DNA of 64,000 nt from Acetobacter fabarum. Its GTDB lineage: Bacteria > Pseudomonadota > Alphaproteobacteria > Acetobacterales > Acetobacteraceae. The translations under genes and the position numbers were made by a program. The notes under the pieces are model-generated. The model had not been told where the DNA came from. It searched no databases and saw only the letters and a program-made list of their open reading frames with translations. Numbering within the stretch: the stretch's first letter is position 1; the number at the start of each line of letters is the position of its first letter. The stretch is taken from NCBI RefSeq assembly GCF_011516925.1, contig NZ_WOTG01000001.1, positions 434,001-498,000 of the forward strand, read 5' to 3'. Below, piece after piece: positions 17,544-25,736 of the stretch.

Positions 17544-18434
17544 GTGACACTCCCCACACCAACACCTCCTGCAGTGGTTCTGACCGAGCAAACGGATGCG
17601 CCGCGCCCGCGCCACCGCAAGCGGCGTGTGCGCAACAAAAGCCGCGGCCCTTCCTTTAACCGCCTGATTCCCAACATTCTGACAATGCTGGGGCTTTGCG
17701 CGGGCCTGATGGGCATGCGTTTTGCCATTGAAGGACGTTTTCAGGCGGCTGCGGCAGCATTGCTCATTTCCGCCTTTATTGATGGGCTGGACGGGCGCAT
17801 TGCCCGCATGCTTCGCGGGGCCACACGCTTTGGCGCGGAGTTTGACAGCCTTTCCGACTTTCTGTGCTTTGGGGTCGCTCCCTCGTTCCTGCTGTATTTC
17901 TGGGCGATCAAGGACAGTAACCGCTACGCTTTTCTGCCCTGCCTGCTCTTTACGGTCTGCATGGCGCTCAGGCTGGCGCGCTTTAACGCCAATCTGGATG
18001 GGGAAGAGCTGAAACCCAAATATGCCAGCAACTTCTTTACCGGCGTACCCGCACCCGCCGGAGCCGGGCTTGCGCTTTTCCCGCTCTTTTTGGGGCTGGA
18101 AGCACAAAAGCTGGGCATAGACTGGCTTTACAACCTGACCCGCCTGCCATGGCTGCCGGACTTTACCTTGACCAGCACGGCCCTGCTGCTGGTTTCCACC
18201 CTTCCGGTCTGGTCCTTTAAAAACTTCAAGGTTCCGGCCCAGTTTGTGCTGCCCCTTATGCTGGGGACCGGCATTTACGCAGTGGTGCTGGTGGCAGACC
18301 CGTGGGCCGCACTGGCTGCGGCAGGCGTAATCTATATGGTTCTGCTCCCCTTAAGCCGCCGCAGTTTTCTCAAACTGAAAAAAGCGGCAGAAGACCTGCA
18401 TAAAGACGATACCGAAACGCCCTCATCCCCCTGA
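17544..18434 (+). CDS. pssA: CDP-diacylglycerol--serine O-phosphatidyltransferase
   Basis: This CDP-alcohol phosphatidyltransferase of about 296 residues makes phosphatidylserine from CDP-diacylglycerol and serine. The family motif is intact: DGLDGRIAR followed by GAEFDSLSD, which supplies the metal-binding aspartates. Several membrane helices follow. The N-terminus is basic (RPRHRKRRVRNK) before the first helix. The start is uncertain: GTG at 17544, seven bases after the psd stop, is chosen over the TTG at 17490 that lies inside psd. Together with psd it forms the phosphatidylethanolamine operon. The stop codon lies within a terminator hairpin shared with the convergent Hyf-like operon. Confidence 0.92.
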   Translation: MTLPTPTPPAVVLTEQTDAPRPRHRKRRVRNKSRGPSFNRLIPNILTMLGLCAGLMGMRFAIEGRFQAAAAALLISAFIDGLDGRIARMLRGATRFGAEFDSLSDFLCFGVAPSFLLYFWAIKDSNRYAFLPCLLFTVCMALRLARFNANLDGEELKPKYASNFFTGVPAPAGAGLALFPLFLGLEAQKLGIDWLYNLTRLPWLPDFTLTSTALLLVSTLPVWSFKNFKVPAQFVLPLMLGTGIYAVVLVADPWAALAAAGVIYMVLLPLSRRSFLKLKKAAEDLHKDDTETPSSP

Positions 18435-18450
18435 GGGCGTTTCTTTTTTA
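18414..18450 (+). terminator. terminator overlapping the convergent 3' ends of pssA and the HyfI-like gene
   Basis: GAAACGCCCTCA (18414-18425) pairs perfectly over 12 bp with TGAGGGCGTTTC (18432-18443) around a six-base loop, followed by TTTTTT on the plus strand. The pssA stop codon is the first three bases of the right arm, and the opposing HyfI-like stop is in the left arm. Confidence 0.9.
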
Positions 18451-18920
18451 CCGCCCTGCGCGGCACTCCCAAGCAGGGAGCACAACCCGTTCAGGATTTC
18501 CTGCGGGCTGGGTGGGCACCCCGTAATGGCCAGATCGACCGATACGCGCCGCTCCAGCCCCCCCATAACGGCATAATTTTCGCTAAATACGCCGCCATCC
18601 AGTGCGCAGTTGCCAATGCTGATAATGCCTTTGGGGTTTGGCATGGCCTCCCACGCTGCCTGCAACACAGGAGCCATGGTGCGGGTTAAAGCCCCGGTAA
18701 CCAGAAGCACATCGGCCGAGCGGGGGGAGTTTACAAACCCGAACCCCGCCCCCTGCATGTCATACGGCAGGCAGGTCATGGCCTGTAGCTCCATGCCACA
18801 GCCACCACAGCCACCCGTATCCACATGAAAAAGCAGCAAGGGCCAGCGCGGACCTAATGGTTTGCGCTTTTGCCGCTCTTTCCAGAACACCGTATTCATG
18901 ACCGCGCGGATCAGCCCCAT
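18423..18920 (-). CDS. HyfI/NuoB-like iron-sulfur subunit of a NiFe-less group 4 hydrogenase-related complex
   Basis: The 165-residue protein resembles the small subunit of group 4 hydrogenases (HycG/HyfI) and complex I NuoB. The [4Fe-4S] ligands are all present: Cys38 and Cys41 in DTGGCGGCGME, Cys105 in IGNCALDGG and Cys135 in TGCPPSPQEIL. Unlike the other subunits of this operon, its cofactor site is therefore intact. It is the last gene of the operon, 36 bases after the HyfG-like stop. The ATG at 18920 is used; another ATG at 18899 is possible. Its C-terminus runs into the terminator shared with pssA. Confidence 0.88.
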   Translation of the reverse strand: MGLIRAVMNTVFWKERQKRKPLGPRWPLLLFHVDTGGCGGCGMELQAMTCLPYDMQGAGFGFVNSPRSADVLLVTGALTRTMAPVLQAAWEAMPNPKGIISIGNCALDGGVFSENYAVMGGLERRVSVDLAITGCPPSPQEILNGLCSLLGSAAQGGKKETPSGG

Positions 18921-18956
18921 GACCGCCCCGCCTTGTACCCGTTCATGCCTGCTCCC

Positions 18957-20453
18957 TTAACCATCGAGTGCTGCTGCGTTCATACCGAGTGAGCAGGCCA
19001 GCAACGCGGCATCCTCCGCCGCATGGTTGGGCAGAGCCTGCTCGAACACCAGCAGGGCCGAGGTTTCAGGCTTGCGGCAAAAAGCTTCCGCCACACGGCC
19101 ATGCGCCAGACGCACCCAGTACAGCACGCCCCCCCATGGCCCTTCCACCAGCCCCGTGCCCTCCCCATCCTGCATGGACAGGGGAACCGTACCACCTGCA
19201 TTCAGCCCGATCCGGGCCGAGGCCAGGTCCAGCATGCGCAGGCTTTCCTCCATCTCATCCAGCAACAGCAGGGCGCGGTCTTCCGCCGTGCCGTTCTGCC
19301 TGCCCGATGTGTAACGCCACAGCCCGTCATATGCCGGCATAATGCGTCTGCCATCACAGTCCCAGCCTGCGGCCCGGGCTACGGGGCCATCCAGCCCGAC
19401 CCGTTCCAGATCATCAGCCTGAATACGCCCCACACGACCCAGCAGGGCAGAAAGACCGGGGTATTCACGCCATAAAAGCACCAGTAGCGGGTAAGCCTTC
19501 TGCCCCAGTTCGTACACTCTGCCGCACAGATCCCCCATCTGCGTTGCGTCCCGCACGGACAGGCCACCGGGGATGCAAACATCCATCAGCAACCGTGACC
19601 CGGTTATGGGGGCAGCCTCGGCCACCAGTTTTTCCCGCAACGCCATACAGTGCGATGCCACAAGCTGCGCACCCGCCAGCCGCGCCATACCGGCCAGAAT
19701 GTACAGGTGCTGGAACAGGCGCTCCATTTCCAGCAAGGCTACGCGCAGGAGTGCCACTTCGGCCCCGACCTGCGCATTGCAGGCATTTTCTACCGCCTGA
19801 CAGAACGCAACCTGATGCGCCACGGAGCTGCCTGCCGCAACGCGGCTGCTCAACCGGCAGACATCCTCTACCCGCGCATGCCGTGAGCGGGCGGCAATGC
19901 CCCGGTGGGCATAGCCTGTCTGTGTTTCCGCATTGGCGACCAATGTGCCGGACAGGACAAGCCGCGTATAAAACGGTGGGGCCAGATCGCCCGTTGCAGG
20001 CCCACGTTCTTCCACCCGCCCCTTGGCGGCCGCCATGGCATCGGATGGCTGGAACGCCACAAGTCCCTTGCGCTGCCCGCCCCGACCGGGTGCGGCGCAA
20101 AGCGGTGGAGCGGCAGACCACACATCATGGTCTAGCAGAGGGCGCACATCCACCGCCCACATGGCCTCTGCCCCGAACAGGTCATAGATCGCCCGTTCAT
20201 ACAGGCTGGCAGCAACCCGTGCGGGGGAAAGGGCAGGATAACGCCCCCCTTCCAGCGCCAGCGTTGCAGCGAGTGGGTGCCCATCGGGCAAGAACAGGGC
20301 ATGCACATCCGCCCCATCACACCACAGGCCGACAAAGGGCAGATCATCCCCTTTAAGCATATCCACCATATCGCGCCAGGCCAGTTCATCCAGCCGGAAG
20401 CGCCATGGGGTGGAGGTCTGTTCACCTGCGTAAATCAGTGCGGCAACATCCAT
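18957..20453 (-). CDS. HyfG-like (NuoC-NuoD fused) large subunit lacking the NiFe ligands
   Basis: The 498-residue fusion has an N-terminal NuoC-like part (about residues 1-115, with the signature ERAIYDLFGAEAMW) and a NuoD / hydrogenase large-subunit part (about 165-498, with YAHRGIAARS, AVENAC, LLEMERLFQHL and GRVGRI). True group 4 hydrogenases bind nickel-iron with CxxC near the start of the large-subunit part and DPCxxC near its end. Here the first motif reads C199-RLS (second Cys lost) and the second region has a single Cys487 in LLACSLG. It cannot be an ordinary hydrogenase. The start at 20453 overlaps the upstream stop by one base (TGATG); the frame open to 20516 is not used. Confidence 0.87.
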   Translation of the reverse strand: MDVAALIYAGEQTSTPWRFRLDELAWRDMVDMLKGDDLPFVGLWCDGADVHALFLPDGHPLAATLALEGGRYPALSPARVAASLYERAIYDLFGAEAMWAVDVRPLLDHDVWSAAPPLCAAPGRGGQRKGLVAFQPSDAMAAAKGRVEERGPATGDLAPPFYTRLVLSGTLVANAETQTGYAHRGIAARSRHARVEDVCRLSSRVAAGSSVAHQVAFCQAVENACNAQVGAEVALLRVALLEMERLFQHLYILAGMARLAGAQLVASHCMALREKLVAEAAPITGSRLLMDVCIPGGLSVRDATQMGDLCGRVYELGQKAYPLLVLLWREYPGLSALLGRVGRIQADDLERVGLDGPVARAAGWDCDGRRIMPAYDGLWRYTSGRQNGTAEDRALLLLDEMEESLRMLDLASARIGLNAGGTVPLSMQDGEGTGLVEGPWGGVLYWVRLAHGRVAEAFCRKPETSALLVFEQALPNHAAEDAALLACSLGMNAAALDG

Positions 20454-21586
20454 CAGAACGCCCCCAGCATCATGGCCAATGGCACCAGAAAGCCCATAAC
20501 GGTCAGCACCGAACATGCCACGCGCCCGGCCATGTCATCTGGCCAGAACAGGCGGGCGGCCTCCCGGTCCGGCACGGCGCGCAGCACGGCGGCCAGAATG
20601 CCGCACACGGTCAGCACCGCAACGGGCCATGCCCAGTCGGTCATGACAGACAACAGGAGCAGGCACCCCACAAACGGTGCACCGGGGGGAAAACAGGCCA
20701 GAACATTAATCGCCCAGCCCCGCCCACTACGGTTACCCCCGGCCAGACACCAGCCACACAGGAACAGCAAAGCCGCAACATCCGCCTCCACGCCAACGGC
20801 CATAAGTGCCAGCGCGGACGGAAATGTGCGGAACAGCCTCTGCCTGTCCCCCGCGCGGCCCGCAGCAGCCGTTAACCAGACCGAAATAAGGCCCGCCGCC
20901 ACCAGAGCCATTTCAAACGCAGCACCACCATGCCCGCGCAGCCGCATGGCCAGCAGGATGGATGCCCCCGCAAACGGGAGAAACAGGAAGCTATCGTTCT
21001 CATCGCGCCAGAACTGACCAAACGGGGCAAGTCCGGTTAAAATAACAAGGCCACATGCCATCATCAGGCCCGAAACCGTGCTCCCCTGCGGCAATAACAG
21101 ACCCGACAGCACAAGGACCGTTCCCACCGACCCGGTGCGGATTAACCCCCACCCGGTTTTGGCCTGCCCGGCCGGGCGCGTAAAAACAAACACGCCCCAC
21201 GCCAGAGCCAGTTCCAGAATACCCAGCCCTACAGCCGGTTGAGGCGCAACACATGCAAGCCCCGCCAGAGCCGTGCAGACATGCGGCAGGCTACGCAACA
21301 GGCGGTCGGGCTGGATGCCGTTTTCCAGCACCAGCAGCAGCAGGCCGAAGGCGAGCATGACCCGCCCGGCCCTTTGCACCGGATCATCATCCCACCCGCT
21401 GGCGCCATTCCCGACCGAAGGGAACATGAACACGACAACCGCAAGCCCGCAACCGATGGCGGCCATCCATATCGCGACTTCACGGCTATGGGGAGCCGGC
21501 AGCGCGGCCACAACCAGCGCACCAATAAAGGGCCACACAAATGCCAGTGCGGCCAGAAAAACCGTGGCTTCCATGCCAGCACTCAT
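20453..21586 (-). CDS. HyfF-like antiporter/NuoN-type membrane subunit, diverged
   Basis: The 377-residue hydrophobic protein is in the HyfF position, with many membrane helices. The region GLAPFGQFWRDEND followed by FAGASILLAMRLRG lines up with the PLHxWLPDAHxEAPT ... LLKxxLYxLLR part of proton-pumping subunits, but the histidine, glutamate and lysine of that motif are missing. DRQRLFRTFPSALALMAVG likewise matches DxKRLLAYSSxEHMG with the key residues changed. It is shorter than typical HyfF (about 500). The ATG at 21586 overlaps the upstream stop (ATGA), which decides the start. Confidence 0.75.
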   Translation of the reverse strand: MSAGMEATVFLAALAFVWPFIGALVVAALPAPHSREVAIWMAAIGCGLAVVVFMFPSVGNGASGWDDDPVQRAGRVMLAFGLLLLVLENGIQPDRLLRSLPHVCTALAGLACVAPQPAVGLGILELALAWGVFVFTRPAGQAKTGWGLIRTGSVGTVLVLSGLLLPQGSTVSGLMMACGLVILTGLAPFGQFWRDENDSFLFLPFAGASILLAMRLRGHGGAAFEMALVAAGLISVWLTAAAGRAGDRQRLFRTFPSALALMAVGVEADVAALLFLCGWCLAGGNRSGRGWAINVLACFPPGAPFVGCLLLLSVMTDWAWPVAVLTVCGILAAVLRAVPDREAARLFWPDDMAGRVACSVLTVMGFLVPLAMMLGAF

Positions 21587-22167
21587 GCGCCTGCCCCTCC
21601 GCCCGGCTGCTCCGTGCGCCTGCCCCGCTGGCCAGCAGCACGCACAGGCACAACACGCGGCATAATGCGGTGGATGCACATGCCCCCAAGGAGCAGCACC
21701 ACCGCCCCGGCCAGAGCAGCCACACCCAGCACCACCGGCTGGTGGCCCAATACGGCAGACAGCAGAACACCTTCAATACAGGTTAAAAGCCCCGCCCACT
21801 GCCAGACCATGCTCTGGCGGCACACAACGGCCACCAGCCCGGCTACCATGGTGCACAGCCCTGCGGGAAAAACCGTGCTCCCCGCGTGGTTACAGGCCAG
21901 CAGCAGCAAAACCATAAGAGCCAGCGCAAAAAACGGCACGGCGGCCCCTGTGCGTTCGTGCGTGGCATCGTGCTGGTAGCGGGTTAAAAAAAACGGCGGC
22001 AGGGCTGCAAACAGCAACGCCAGCATGGCCCCTACCTCCTGCACCGGAGCAAGCCCATCCACCAGCATGGCCAGTGCAGTCACCACCCCAGCGGGCAGCA
22101 GAAAACCAACACCCCGCGCCACAACACACAAGGCCACCATAGGCACAAGAATGGCAACAAGGGTCAT
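21583..22167 (-). CDS. HyfE-like small membrane subunit
   Basis: The 194-residue protein has about six predicted membrane helices and no cysteine-rich or soluble domain. Its size and place between the HyfC- and HyfF-like genes match HyfE (a NuoK-related subunit). Sequence similarity alone is weak, so the call rests mainly on gene order. An acidic residue typical of NuoK helices may be the Glu in TCIEGVLLS. Both ends overlap neighbours by four bases (ATGA), giving tight translational coupling. The C-terminal tail is arginine- and glycine-rich. Confidence 0.65.
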   Translation of the reverse strand: MTLVAILVPMVALCVVARGVGFLLPAGVVTALAMLVDGLAPVQEVGAMLALLFAALPPFFLTRYQHDATHERTGAAVPFFALALMVLLLLACNHAGSTVFPAGLCTMVAGLVAVVCRQSMVWQWAGLLTCIEGVLLSAVLGHQPVVLGVAALAGAVVLLLGGMCIHRIMPRVVPVRAAGQRGRRTEQPGGGAGA

Positions 22168-23177
22168 GGCGTATCCTCCATACCTGCGGCGGAAGCCTGC
22201 GAATTATCCTGCAAGACGGCAGACACGCTGGTATCCTCCCGTTCGGCCAGAAAAGGGTGAACAGACCAAGTGACCTGTAAGGCCAGCACTCCAAGCAAAA
22301 AGATACTGACCAGCCTTACCCGCGCGCGCCGTAGCGGGGGCAGCACAACCAGCCGGACCAGTGCAAGCAACACCGCAGCCAACAGCAGCTTGGCACCCCA
22401 CAGGCCAAAACCGAGCATGCACTGGCTCAGCCACTGTTCCATGCCCGCATCATCAGGCAAGGCAAGGCTGCCCGGCCATGCCGTATCCAGCGCCAGCACA
22501 ACCCATGTTATTTGCACACAGTCTGCCGCCCAGAGCCACATAGCCCGCTCCGACCCGGCCAGCAGGGCAAGCTGGCCATCCTGCACAGGCCACGCCAATG
22601 CGGGCACTAAAAACAGGGCCACACCGGCCAGCACAAAAGGCGCGCCATCGGTTAGGGGGGAAAGCCCGTGTACCGTGGCCAGAAAATCTGAAAAATCACG
22701 CGCACCACAGAGCAGAAAAACCGGCACCAGCGCGGGCAGCAACAAAAATGCCCCCAGCATGCCGCGAGCCCCCTGCACAGCCCCCAAGCCACCGCCCAGC
22801 ACACAGGGAATGTTCAGGCACACCAGCGCCATAACCAGCACGCAGCAGATCAACAGCAGGCCCGGTGCAGGAAAACCGGGAACCGCCAGTGTAAATGCAG
22901 GAACCAGCGCACAGCCCAGAACGGCCAGCACCAATGCCGCCGCACAGGCAATACTGGCCAGCTGTGCGCCCTCCTGCTGCAAGCGAGGCCGGCGGAACTG
23001 GTGCCCTATATCCTGCCACCGCCCCATGACCGGAAAAGCCGAAACACCCGACAGGCGCCCCGCCACCCGCCCGACAAGCCCGCTCAACCAGGGTGCTGCA
23101 AACACCATTGCCAGTGTTTGCAGGCCCAGAAGCGGCAAAAAGAGGAGGACCCAGCCCCAGGGAATGGAATGTGTCAT
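22164..23177 (-). CDS. HyfC/HycD (NuoH-like) membrane subunit, diverged
   Basis: The 337-residue membrane protein carries a recognisable N-terminal HyfC pattern: APWLSGLVGRVAGRLSG, then VMGRWQDIGHQFRRP, matching the loop before the second helix of HycD/NuoH proteins. The acidic block of the family (ELTMVHEAMxLEYSG), which lies next to the quinone/proton pathway, is replaced here by a stretch around GQLALLAGSERAMWLW with only one acidic residue kept. The frame is open to 23393, but the ATG at 23177 overlaps the HyfB-like stop (ATGA) and is the clear start. It should anchor the soluble subunits to the membrane. Confidence 0.78.
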   Translation of the reverse strand: MTHSIPWGWVLLFLPLLGLQTLAMVFAAPWLSGLVGRVAGRLSGVSAFPVMGRWQDIGHQFRRPRLQQEGAQLASIACAAALVLAVLGCALVPAFTLAVPGFPAPGLLLICCVLVMALVCLNIPCVLGGGLGAVQGARGMLGAFLLLPALVPVFLLCGARDFSDFLATVHGLSPLTDGAPFVLAGVALFLVPALAWPVQDGQLALLAGSERAMWLWAADCVQITWVVLALDTAWPGSLALPDDAGMEQWLSQCMLGFGLWGAKLLLAAVLLALVRLVVLPPLRRARVRLVSIFLLGVLALQVTWSVHPFLAEREDTSVSAVLQDNSQASAAGMEDTP

Positions 23178-24907
23178 TTGCCCACAAACAGCCCGGCCAG
23201 CAGCCCTGCCCCCATAAGAAGCAGGATCAGAACCATACCCTGCGCTTCGCACCAGCTTATGGCCACAAACAGGCAACGCCGTGCATAACGCCAGAAAACT
23301 TTTCCCCGGCGTGGCAGAATACCCCTTGCCCCCGGTACGCGCAGGGCCGTAACGGCCGCAGGCGTGGTAAAAAACCCGCGCCATGCTGGCCACAAAGGCA
23401 ACAGCCCCCCACCAAAGCCCCCCTCTGCCACAGATGCGGGGCCATTCCGGTCCGGAGGAATCTCATACACCGGAGCACCCTGCCGCCATGCTGTAACCTG
23501 CCGCAGAGCCGGGGCAAATGGCATAAAACCAAACACCCGGACCAACAGAGCCGTGGCAAGCAGCACAAGCGCCAGCCCCAGCAAAACCAGCAGTGGCGTC
23601 AGGCGGGCAGCGTGCCCTGCAAAATGCACTGTTGTCATGTCCTGCCATGTTACGGGTAGCAGGGGCGGCCCCACCACCAGATGGTCTGCCACAAACAGCC
23701 AGGTTCCCGGCACAAAGGCCAGAACACTGCTCAGTACCGCGCATACCCACAAAGGCAGAACCATGGCAGCGGGGGCATCCGCCTTCCCCTGTGGGGCAGA
23801 CAGAAGCAGCAGGCCCGCACGCACCAGAGCGGCACTCAACATCACTCCAAGGGCGACAAAAAACACCACCAGCATAACCGCCAGGAGCGCCATGACCGGC
23901 TGCGTGGCCTCGACCGAGTAACTGCCCCCCGCCAGAGCCGCCCACAGGACCGCAAACCCACCACAGGGTGGCAGAACCGAGCACTGGGCCAGCACCACAC
24001 CCAGCAGGCACCGCGCCGCACGGGTGTGCAATATACCGCCCTCACCTGCGTCACTCCGCTGGGCTACCCAGAGCATGCCCAGCAGCGCCACAACAGGGGC
24101 CCCCATGCCCAGCACTACGGTTGTACGAAACGTATCCGCCCCACCCAGAGGGGAGGAAAGCGCCAGCACAAGGGCCAGCACGAGCATGCCGTACCAGCAG
24201 GCCGCCAGCCCTGCCACAAGGGCCGTGGCCTGCTGGTTGCGCATGGCCTGCGCAAGCCCTGCACACGCAACCACACCCCCACACGCCAGCAGCACCCCTT
24301 GCGACAGCAGGGGCAACTCCCCCACTTCGGCCAGCAAACGCCCAAGCAAAAACAGGCCAATACAGGCAGGCAGCACTCCCAACGGCCCCCGCTGCACGGC
24401 AATGGCCCACCCAACAAGCAGAACCATAACCCCCAGCAGCGGCACAGACAGGCTGCTATCGGCGGGAATACAGGCAGGCAGCACGGCAAAAGGCAGGCAC
24501 AGCCCGCGCTTGCCATGCCCAGCCAGCAGCACAAGGGCCGTACCCGTAAACAGGCCAAACACCAGAGGTGAAAGGGCCAGAACCCCCAGACAGGCCAGCA
24601 CACAGGCCACGCCAGCACGCCCCCGGCCAACCAGCGCCCCCACACAGGCCAGAATGGCCAGCATGGGCAAAGATGGCCCATCCGCCCCAAATACGGGGAA
24701 CCACCCCAACTCCCCTTCCACACGGAAGGCGGCACCGGTCAGGGCTGTTACACCGGCAATGGCCCAGAGTACCGCCAGTATTTCTGTCCGCCAGAATGCC
24801 ATGCCACGCAGGATTTTATCCGGCAGCGCAGCAACAGCACCCAGTGCCACCAGCACCAGAAGCAGACCACAAAGAACACTAGAGAGAAGAATGGAACCCA
24901 GCCCCAA
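23174..24907 (-). CDS. HyfB-like (NuoL/M-type) membrane subunit, diverged
   Basis: The 577-residue protein has many membrane helices and is the first gene of the six-gene operon, as hyfB is in hydrogenase-4 operons. The C-terminal soluble-facing stretch RQGAPVYEIPPDRNGP and final helices resemble HyfB. The conserved loop of proton-pumping subunits (WLPxAHxxAP) and the following lysine helix cannot be found, so proton translocation by the usual mechanism is doubtful. The start is uncertain: a TTG at 24907 with a weak AGG upstream is used because no ATG fits. No Hyp maturation gene is nearby. Confidence 0.72.
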   Translation of the reverse strand: MGLGSILLSSVLCGLLLVLVALGAVAALPDKILRGMAFWRTEILAVLWAIAGVTALTGAAFRVEGELGWFPVFGADGPSLPMLAILACVGALVGRGRAGVACVLACLGVLALSPLVFGLFTGTALVLLAGHGKRGLCLPFAVLPACIPADSSLSVPLLGVMVLLVGWAIAVQRGPLGVLPACIGLFLLGRLLAEVGELPLLSQGVLLACGGVVACAGLAQAMRNQQATALVAGLAACWYGMLVLALVLALSSPLGGADTFRTTVVLGMGAPVVALLGMLWVAQRSDAGEGGILHTRAARCLLGVVLAQCSVLPPCGGFAVLWAALAGGSYSVEATQPVMALLAVMLVVFFVALGVMLSAALVRAGLLLLSAPQGKADAPAAMVLPLWVCAVLSSVLAFVPGTWLFVADHLVVGPPLLPVTWQDMTTVHFAGHAARLTPLLVLLGLALVLLATALLVRVFGFMPFAPALRQVTAWRQGAPVYEIPPDRNGPASVAEGGFGGGLLPLWPAWRGFFTTPAAVTALRVPGARGILPRRGKVFWRYARRCLFVAISWCEAQGMVLILLLMGAGLLAGLFVGK

Positions 24908-24986: not shown

Positions 24987-25736
24987 CTAGGGTGTTTTTC
25001 CCGCTCTGGGCGCTCCGGCCATGCCAGCCGAGGGCATGCGCATACGCGCAAGCCACCCCTTTTTGTGCTGCACGGGCAAAGAAAGAGCAGAATACATTTC
25101 CGGCACGGCTTCTACCAGAATAAGGCTTCCGCCACCGGGGCAGAGCACCTTGCCTGCAATATCCATCCGCCGACCACGCCGGAGCGTGCGGCAGGCCTGA
25201 CTTGCGGGCAGGAACACGGCCTCATCCCACTGTTCGGCCCGCAGCATGGCTGCTGCCAGCAACTGCCGCAGCTTGGGCCGCGTAAAGGAGGCATCCCGCG
25301 CAAACGGAGTACGCCGCAGCCTTGCCCGCCCACCCAGCCGACTGGGCACCACCATAAGCAGGCGTCCATCATCCTTGAGCGCGCGCGCTGCGGAGCGCAG
25401 CACGGTCAGCGGGTTTTCACGCCCTTGCAGAGCATGCACAAGCACAATGCGGTCAAACCTCTGCGCTTCAAATGGAAGGCTCGCAGGGTCCACCACGCAG
25501 CATGGACCGGGCTGCAAAACCATATCGCCCTGCACGCCCCCAAAACTGGCCCCAATGCGCAGGGTGGATGCATCGCCCAGTGCGTGCAGGTAAGGGACTG
25601 CCCCGCCCAACCCCAGAACAGACTGGTTTTTAAGCTCCGGCCAGAACCACCGCATGCGCTCGCCCAGCAGGCTGACACACACTCTGCCCGGTGGAGTCCC
25701 GTAAAAGCATTCTTCGCGCGGCATGGCATTTTGCAT
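24987..25736 (-). CDS. SAM-dependent methyltransferase domain protein
   Basis: The 249-residue protein looks like a class I methyltransferase: a SVLGLGGAVPYL glycine-rich segment in the motif I position, then FDRIVLVHALQG and LKDDGRLLMVVPS, which match motifs IV-V of the type 11 family. The substrate is unknown. Related genes commonly sit divergently beside gloB in alphaproteobacteria, as here, with the two starts 62 bases apart. Its stop is 79 bases upstream of the HyfB-like start on the same strand, so read-through into that operon is possible. Confidence 0.78.
   Translation of the reverse strand: MQNAMPREECFYGTPPGRVCVSLLGERMRWFWPELKNQSVLGLGGAVPYLHALGDASTLRIGASFGGVQGDMVLQPGPCCVVDPASLPFEAQRFDRIVLVHALQGRENPLTVLRSAARALKDDGRLLMVVPSRLGGRARLRRTPFARDASFTRPKLRQLLAAAMLRAEQWDEAVFLPASQACRTLRRGRRMDIAGKVLCPGGGSLILVEAVPEMYSALSLPVQHKKGWLARMRMPSAGMAGAPRAGKTP

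Follow-up and report, generated by a model that had tools for sequence, protein, structure and literature searches.

A minus-strand operon of six genes (positions 18423 to 24907) in a 64,000-nucleotide stretch of the Acetobacter fabarum genome (assembly GCF_011516925.1, contig NZ_WOTG01000001.1, positions 434,001 to 498,000; hereafter the window) encodes, by published usage, an energy-converting hydrogenase related (Ehr) complex. The operon probably encodes a complex of the complex I / group 4 hydrogenase superfamily that descends from Ehr, has become decoupled and most likely no longer converts energy. According to this reading, the NiFe ligands would have been lost in an ancestor in which a replacement motif became fixed and the ion-pumping residues of the membrane arm were retained; subsequently, a lineage within Acetobacteraceae would have lost the replacement motif, the canopy residues and most of the known proton-path residues. 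The remainder would be an assembly anchored in the membrane, whose small subunit HyfI has one [4Fe-4S] cluster; a ferredoxin-like entry subunit is absent from the operon.

The former NiFe site and the replacement motif

The large subunit, HyfG (18957..20453, minus strand; 498 aa), is HycE-like by profile match and alignment. The four NiFe ligands of Escherichia coli HycE (C241, C244, C531 and C534) align to A206, S209, N492 and A495 of HyfG, none of them a cysteine. The first NiFe-motif stretch is R204-VAAGSSVA-H213 (19815..19844, minus strand; RVCGICGFAH in HycE), and the second is S488-LGMNAAAL-D497 (18963..18992, minus strand; SLDPCYSCTD in HycE); both were placed by alignment, with coordinates derived by hand from the reading frame. 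The initial annotation had read C199-RLS as the first motif and Cys487 as the remnant of the second. The alignment corrects both assignments: C199 and Cys487 both lie close to the homologous stretches, and neither is homologous to a ligand. The annotation had also named, as what would overturn it, intact CxxC and DPCxxC motifs elsewhere in the protein; the true motif stretches do lie elsewhere, yet they lack these cysteines. Because none of the four ligands is present, the operon product should not be a NiFe hydrogenase, in agreement with the earlier exclusion of a hydrogenase reaction. The surroundings of the site have changed as well: HycE H188 and E193 (loop His and Glu), R478 (canopy Arg) and D529 (canopy Asp) correspond to T154, P159, W440 and G490.

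Among the large subunits aligned, the proteins with all four cysteines were E. coli HycE and HyfG, that of locus L127, and two hydrogenases of locus L128. L127 (G417:C70) belongs to another alphaproteobacterium; there HyfI precedes HyfG, and the large-subunit match reads through one TAA. L128 (G000:C8:51000-70000) lies in the source genome and looks like an uptake hydrogenase region: it encodes two NiFe hydrogenase large subunits, with HypD nearby, and another protein resembling a large subunit, in which the motif is partial and which may be HupK-like. Two explanations for the missing ligands were tried and set aside. A hydrogenase with unusual ligands is out, given that 106 of the 115 family members (L127 left out) have no ligand cysteine, nine have one, and CxxC occurs in none. 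A lack of NiFe maturation genes as the cause of the loss is unsupported, since the genome has HypD and the four-cysteine large subunits of L128 on contig C8.

Relatives of the large subunit were found in 340 of 397 Acetobacteraceae genomes and in 86 of 102 genera (E 1e-70), although 21 of these 340 matches are weaker than 1e-100 and are perhaps NuoD. A class-wide sample yielded relatives in 36 of 385 genomes, including four Acetobacteraceae and the genome that carries L127, and a phylum-wide sample, searched with a second profile at 1e-80, in 65 of 299, including three Acetobacteraceae. Since the 115 alphaproteobacterial large subunits (L127 set apart) all lack CxxC, the loss of the NiFe cysteines is evidently old on this alignment, reaching far beyond Acetobacter, and a conserved motif now occupies the site. 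This motif, the pair RxSGDSTVA...SFNCSYSG or close variants, occurs in most canonical loci and extends to other classes of the phylum. Sequences near RxSGDSTVA[HY] and SFNCSYSG are seen at the former NiFe site in L113-L126, L130-L147 and L189-L218, which span several classes. It is possible that the pair marks a site for another cofactor or a substrate; the passages of the literature examined contain no description of it.

"Canonical" and "derived" are our own labels. A strict rule, requiring both motifs, was applied in the 89-locus HyfB table, which had been limited beforehand to loci whose HyfB has 400 aa or more; a looser rule, requiring only the second motif, was applied in the tree, the HyfC residue counts, the column-free counts, the newly conserved columns and the motif count that follows. 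The family sets exclude L034, L110, L177 and L184, removed by hand, as well as L112 and L127. Two of these are of the Acetobacter type (L034 and L110), one is canonical (L177), one is divergent with neither motif (L184), one is a fragment (L112), and L127 has the four NiFe cysteines. In this locus set the second replacement motif is found in all 32 loci outside Acetobacteraceae and in 40 of the 83 within the family. On a large-subunit tree built by a quick method, the two types require three changes (at least two), versus 34 in shuffles. The derived rows form one large clade (40 derived, with the canonical L169 inside) and one separate pair. The root of this tree is insecure, because E. coli HyfG falls on a long branch within the canonical group; the direction from canonical to derived is thus one that we infer from the distribution.

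Proton-path residues of the membrane arm

HyfB (23174..24907, minus strand; 577 aa, TTG start as called) is a HycC-like antiporter-fold subunit by profile match. At the columns of HycC E135, H222, K239, H328, H332, K336 and E391 it has A, Q, C, G, P, L and L. Across the 89 loci with a usable HyfB, the replacement motif and the HyfB proton-path residues are kept or lost together. The 53 loci with both strict motifs all have E135, K239, H328, H332, K336 and E391, and 51 of them have H222; of the other 36, 35 retain one or none of the seven, and L119 differs in having all seven together with the canonical second motif. HyfC (22164..23177, minus strand; ATG at 23177 overlapping the HyfB stop) is HycD (ND1)-like, again by profile match. 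It has L, L and R at HycD E138, E211 and E275 and a gap at E189, D196 and E203, and the only HycD proton-path residue left is an Asp at E206. Each of HycD R108, E138, D196, E203, E206, E211 and E275 is present in 61 of 61 canonical HyfC, compared to 19, 3, 11, 1, 10, 7 and 1 of 39 derived ones, respectively. A column-free count points in the same direction: mean E+K+H in the membrane stretches is 23.7 in canonical versus 12.3 in derived HyfB, and 18.9 versus 6.4 in HyfC.

In E. coli formate hydrogenlyase (FHL), according to passages of PMC9474812, changing HycD E138 lowers H2 production by 98%, changing HycD E199/E201/E203 lowers activity by 99%, and changing HycC E391 lowers H2 production by 45%. 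Redox-ion coupling has been suspected in print for Ehr; the residue losses in HyfB and HyfC would argue against it in the Acetobacter type, in which energy conversion has most likely been lost. The losses along the proton path, as those at the active site, are read from sequence alignment. Ehr loci of other Alphaproteobacteria, and about half of the Acetobacteraceae loci in the set, combine the replacement motif with conserved residues of the antiporter and the E-channel. In the Acetobacter type the motif, the canopy Arg and Asp, and all but a few of those residues are missing, and HyfF is shortened. This apparent second loss, of motif and proton path within an Acetobacteraceae lineage, is a new finding; the loss of the proton path, absent from the initial annotation, is the more unusual feature of the operon.

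The complex could still be an ion-pumping Ehr that works through different residues. Its canonical relatives retain the pump residues, the operon order is constant in loci where all six genes were found, and the Arg content of the membrane stretches is unchanged. Nonetheless, HyfB and HyfC lose their residues together (newly conserved charges there were not searched for), and E+K+H is reduced to roughly half in HyfB and to about a third in HyfC, so that we regard such a pump as improbable.

Small subunit, selection and operon context

The small subunit, HyfI (18423..18920, minus strand; 165 aa), is NuoB-like (Oxidored_q6, 5e-27). Its cysteines C38, C41, C105 and C135 are present as initially annotated and are conserved in 107, 108, 107 and 105 of 108 small subunits, respectively; a [4Fe-4S] cluster is predicted to assemble here. 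The cluster could connect a soluble partner with quinone for electron transfer in a cavity resembling that of complex I, without pumping. In keeping with such a redox enzyme, the cluster cysteines are almost invariant, HycE H284, R395 and E437 are retained as H249, R360 and E400, and both HyfG and HyfI are under purifying selection. It is nevertheless an unlikely alternative, considering that the loop and canopy residues are lost (T154, P159, W440, G490), that the HyfC of the window is gapped across HycD 189-203, and that the operon has no ferredoxin-like entry subunit.

Compared with L106, L107 and L108, the ratio dN/dS is 0.02-0.07 in HyfI and in HyfF, 0.08-0.10 in HyfG, 0.07-0.15 in HyfC, 0.10-0.15 in HyfE and 0.14-0.18 in HyfB; the HyfG of the window is 98% identical to that of L106 (A. 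lovaniensis). Control genes gave 0.03-0.04 (alaS), 0.02-0.05 (psd), 0.03-0.06 (pssA) and 0.11-0.25 (gloB), and the methyltransferase gene upstream 0.12-0.15. The contig of L109 has part of the operon only, with ratios of 0.05 (HyfF), 0.12 (HyfG) and 0.09 (HyfI). For more distant relatives, with dS above 1, the ratios, which climb to about 0.5 in HyfB, are unreliable. Within Acetobacter, HyfF is one of the most constrained subunits, with the lowest dN/dS in the membrane arm; its identity to other derived genera is 21-29%.

Purifying selection thus maintains the operon, as the initial annotation had supposed from its open frames; the values of 0.02-0.18 are not near 1, where that annotation would have seen mere decay, and they argue against it. 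A decaying remnant heading for loss might account for the long branches of the tree and for L111 (Acetobacter okinawensis JCM 25146), in which the HyfC and HyfG frames are split. The HyfG of L109, from the same species, is unbroken, so the split frames of L111 are possibly an assembly error. With the operon retained widely across genera, and with no internal stop among the large-subunit matches listed in the Acetobacteraceae search, we give decay very little credence.

The six open frames follow the order HyfB-C-E-F-G-I, as first annotated, and family profiles match E. coli FHL. Four junctions overlap, with ATGA at B/C, C/E and E/F and TGATG at F/G, and HyfI follows HyfG after 36 nt; the precise stop-start overlaps described before are therefore confirmed. 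The starts of HyfC (23177) and HyfF (21586) are the likely ones and are internal to longer ORFs. Homologues of HyfA, HyfD and HyfH are absent from the operon, where the overlaps and the 36-nt gap leave no room for them (no search for a ferredoxin-like subunit was made elsewhere in the genome).

The profile search proposed in the initial annotation bore out only part of the assignments. The best matches of the family profiles in the Protein Data Bank (PDB) are E. coli FHL subunits: HycE for HyfG (7e-67, with Thermus NuoD next at 5e-55), HycC for HyfB (3e-39) and HycD for HyfC (2e-34). With profiles built without E. coli rows, HyfE (21583..22167, minus strand; 194 aa, ATGA overlap with HyfC) matched E. 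coli HyfE weakly (5e-5), and HyfF (20453..21586, minus strand) did not match E. coli HyfF directly. HyfF did align to canonical HyfF by HHalign (51%, E 1.6e-4), and its name rests mainly on operon position. It has 377 aa in the window, versus about 470 aa matched in canonical Ehr. Pfam and NCBIfam matches were limited to HyfI and HyfG (Complex1_49kDa, 4e-14), with none for HyfB, HyfC, HyfE or HyfF at 1e-3.

The operon neighbours scanned in the window are pssA, psd, a methyltransferase gene and gloB. The methyltransferase-like gene (Methyltransf_11, 3e-6; 24987-25736, minus strand) ends 79 nt upstream of HyfB, is present in the nine compared Acetobacter relatives holding the region, and could be co-transcribed with the operon. 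A candidate terminator hairpin (18414..18443; a pattern match with a 12-pair stem, then TTTTTT on the plus strand) spans the overlapping 3' ends of pssA (plus strand) and HyfI; by pattern match alone, 16 terminator-like sites were found versus a mean of 10.6 in shuffles. The flanks of derived loci (67 ORFs at 18 loci scanned, out of 106 at 20 loci selected) contained pssA-type genes 10 times, aldo/keto reductase 9, psd 8 and holC 6. In the flanks of canonical loci (99 of 147 selected ORFs scanned) no family occurred more than four times, and there was no common neighbour.

Possible roles and known systems

Several observations weigh against a decoupled, non-converting complex. The retained H249, R360 and E400 of HyfG are among them, and a comparison of derived HyfG (44 rows with the E. 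coli reference counted in, 43 otherwise) found one weak newly conserved column and nothing indicating a new active site. In a second HyfB alignment of the window, E135 aligns to G and K239 falls in a gap, the other five columns being identical, and HyfB in the 36 loci without both strict motifs is so divergent that E135 falls in a gap in nine and K239 in eight. HycD E199 and E201 are Ala or His in canonical Ehr as well. The column-free ranges overlap, with Arg undiminished and Asp increased in HyfC. Passages of PMC9474812 report no significant drop in H2 for HycC E135A, H222A, K239A, H328A and K336A. In six derived loci HyfF is still of the antiporter type, with 297-460 aa. AlphaFold2, given six close rows per protein, modelled HyfG and HyfB poorly (mean pLDDT 45.6 and 44.7), and it is from the genes that the six proteins are presumed to form one complex. 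Finally, no metabolic partner gene emerged beside the operon from the flanking ORFs scanned.

As to what a decoupled Ehr derivative would do, its role is a guess among redox sensing, scaffolding and non-pumping electron transfer. We tentatively propose, as a reading that falls somewhat short of even chances, a non-catalytic "pseudoenzyme complex" with one [4Fe-4S] cluster: the proton path would have disappeared along with the active-site motif, and strong selection would have acted on the remodelled membrane arm, most of all on HyfF, for a new role in sensing, scaffolding or transport in acetic acid bacteria. In the main reading, the decoupled complex would serve some other membrane process as a structural or redox-sensing partner, a last step in which we have low confidence.

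The initial annotation had considered the operon its best candidate for an undescribed system. The Ehr assignment does not support this: hydrogenase-related complexes without NiFe ligands have been named Ehr, with function unknown, in passages of PMC10284858, PMC6349859 and PMC6728331, and the NiFe loss is not particular to the operon of the window. As described there, Ehr complexes have group 4 hydrogenase-like subunits without the NiFe cysteines and antiporter-like membrane subunits. In the operon, the NiFe cysteines are absent (A206, S209, N492, A495) and an antiporter-like subunit is present (HycC, 3e-39), its pump residues gone. The Acetobacter type differs from the Ehr so described by its shortened HyfF and in that the replacement motif is missing too, together with most proton-path residues. 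Among the open-licence papers listed in literature searches, some of them aimed at acetic acid bacteria, none is concerned with this operon, judging by title and the opening of the abstract; the Komagataeibacter passage of PMC12361115 concerns plasmid-borne Nuo subunits.

E. coli formate hydrogenlyase-1 and hydrogenase-4 (Hyc and Hyf) provide the best PDB profile matches and share the gene order hyfB, C, E, F, G, I, but HycE and HyfG of E. coli have all four cysteines, compared to none in the Acetobacter operon. Respiratory complex I (Nuo) likewise lacks NiFe ligands, and the operon contains NuoB- and NuoD-type families and ND1- and antiporter-type matches. Unlike complex I, it has no NuoE, F, G or I, and FHL outscores complex I in the PDB profile searches of HyfG, HyfB and HyfC; the source genome has a separate NuoB/NuoD/antiporter cluster (L129).

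A parallel within the same family, in a different complex, is provided by the deranged bc1 and COX1-like proteins of Acetobacteraceae, which, according to passages of PMC10715153, have lost cofactor ligands, are retained, and were proposed to be structural. Neither hyf nor Ehr is mentioned in its main text. The operon would add, beside deranged bc1, a further case of respiratory enzymes retained but disarmed in Acetobacteraceae. Hydrogenase, Ehr with pump residues and Ehr without them form a natural series, found partly in culturable food bacteria, which makes the needed part of an Ehr complex directly testable.

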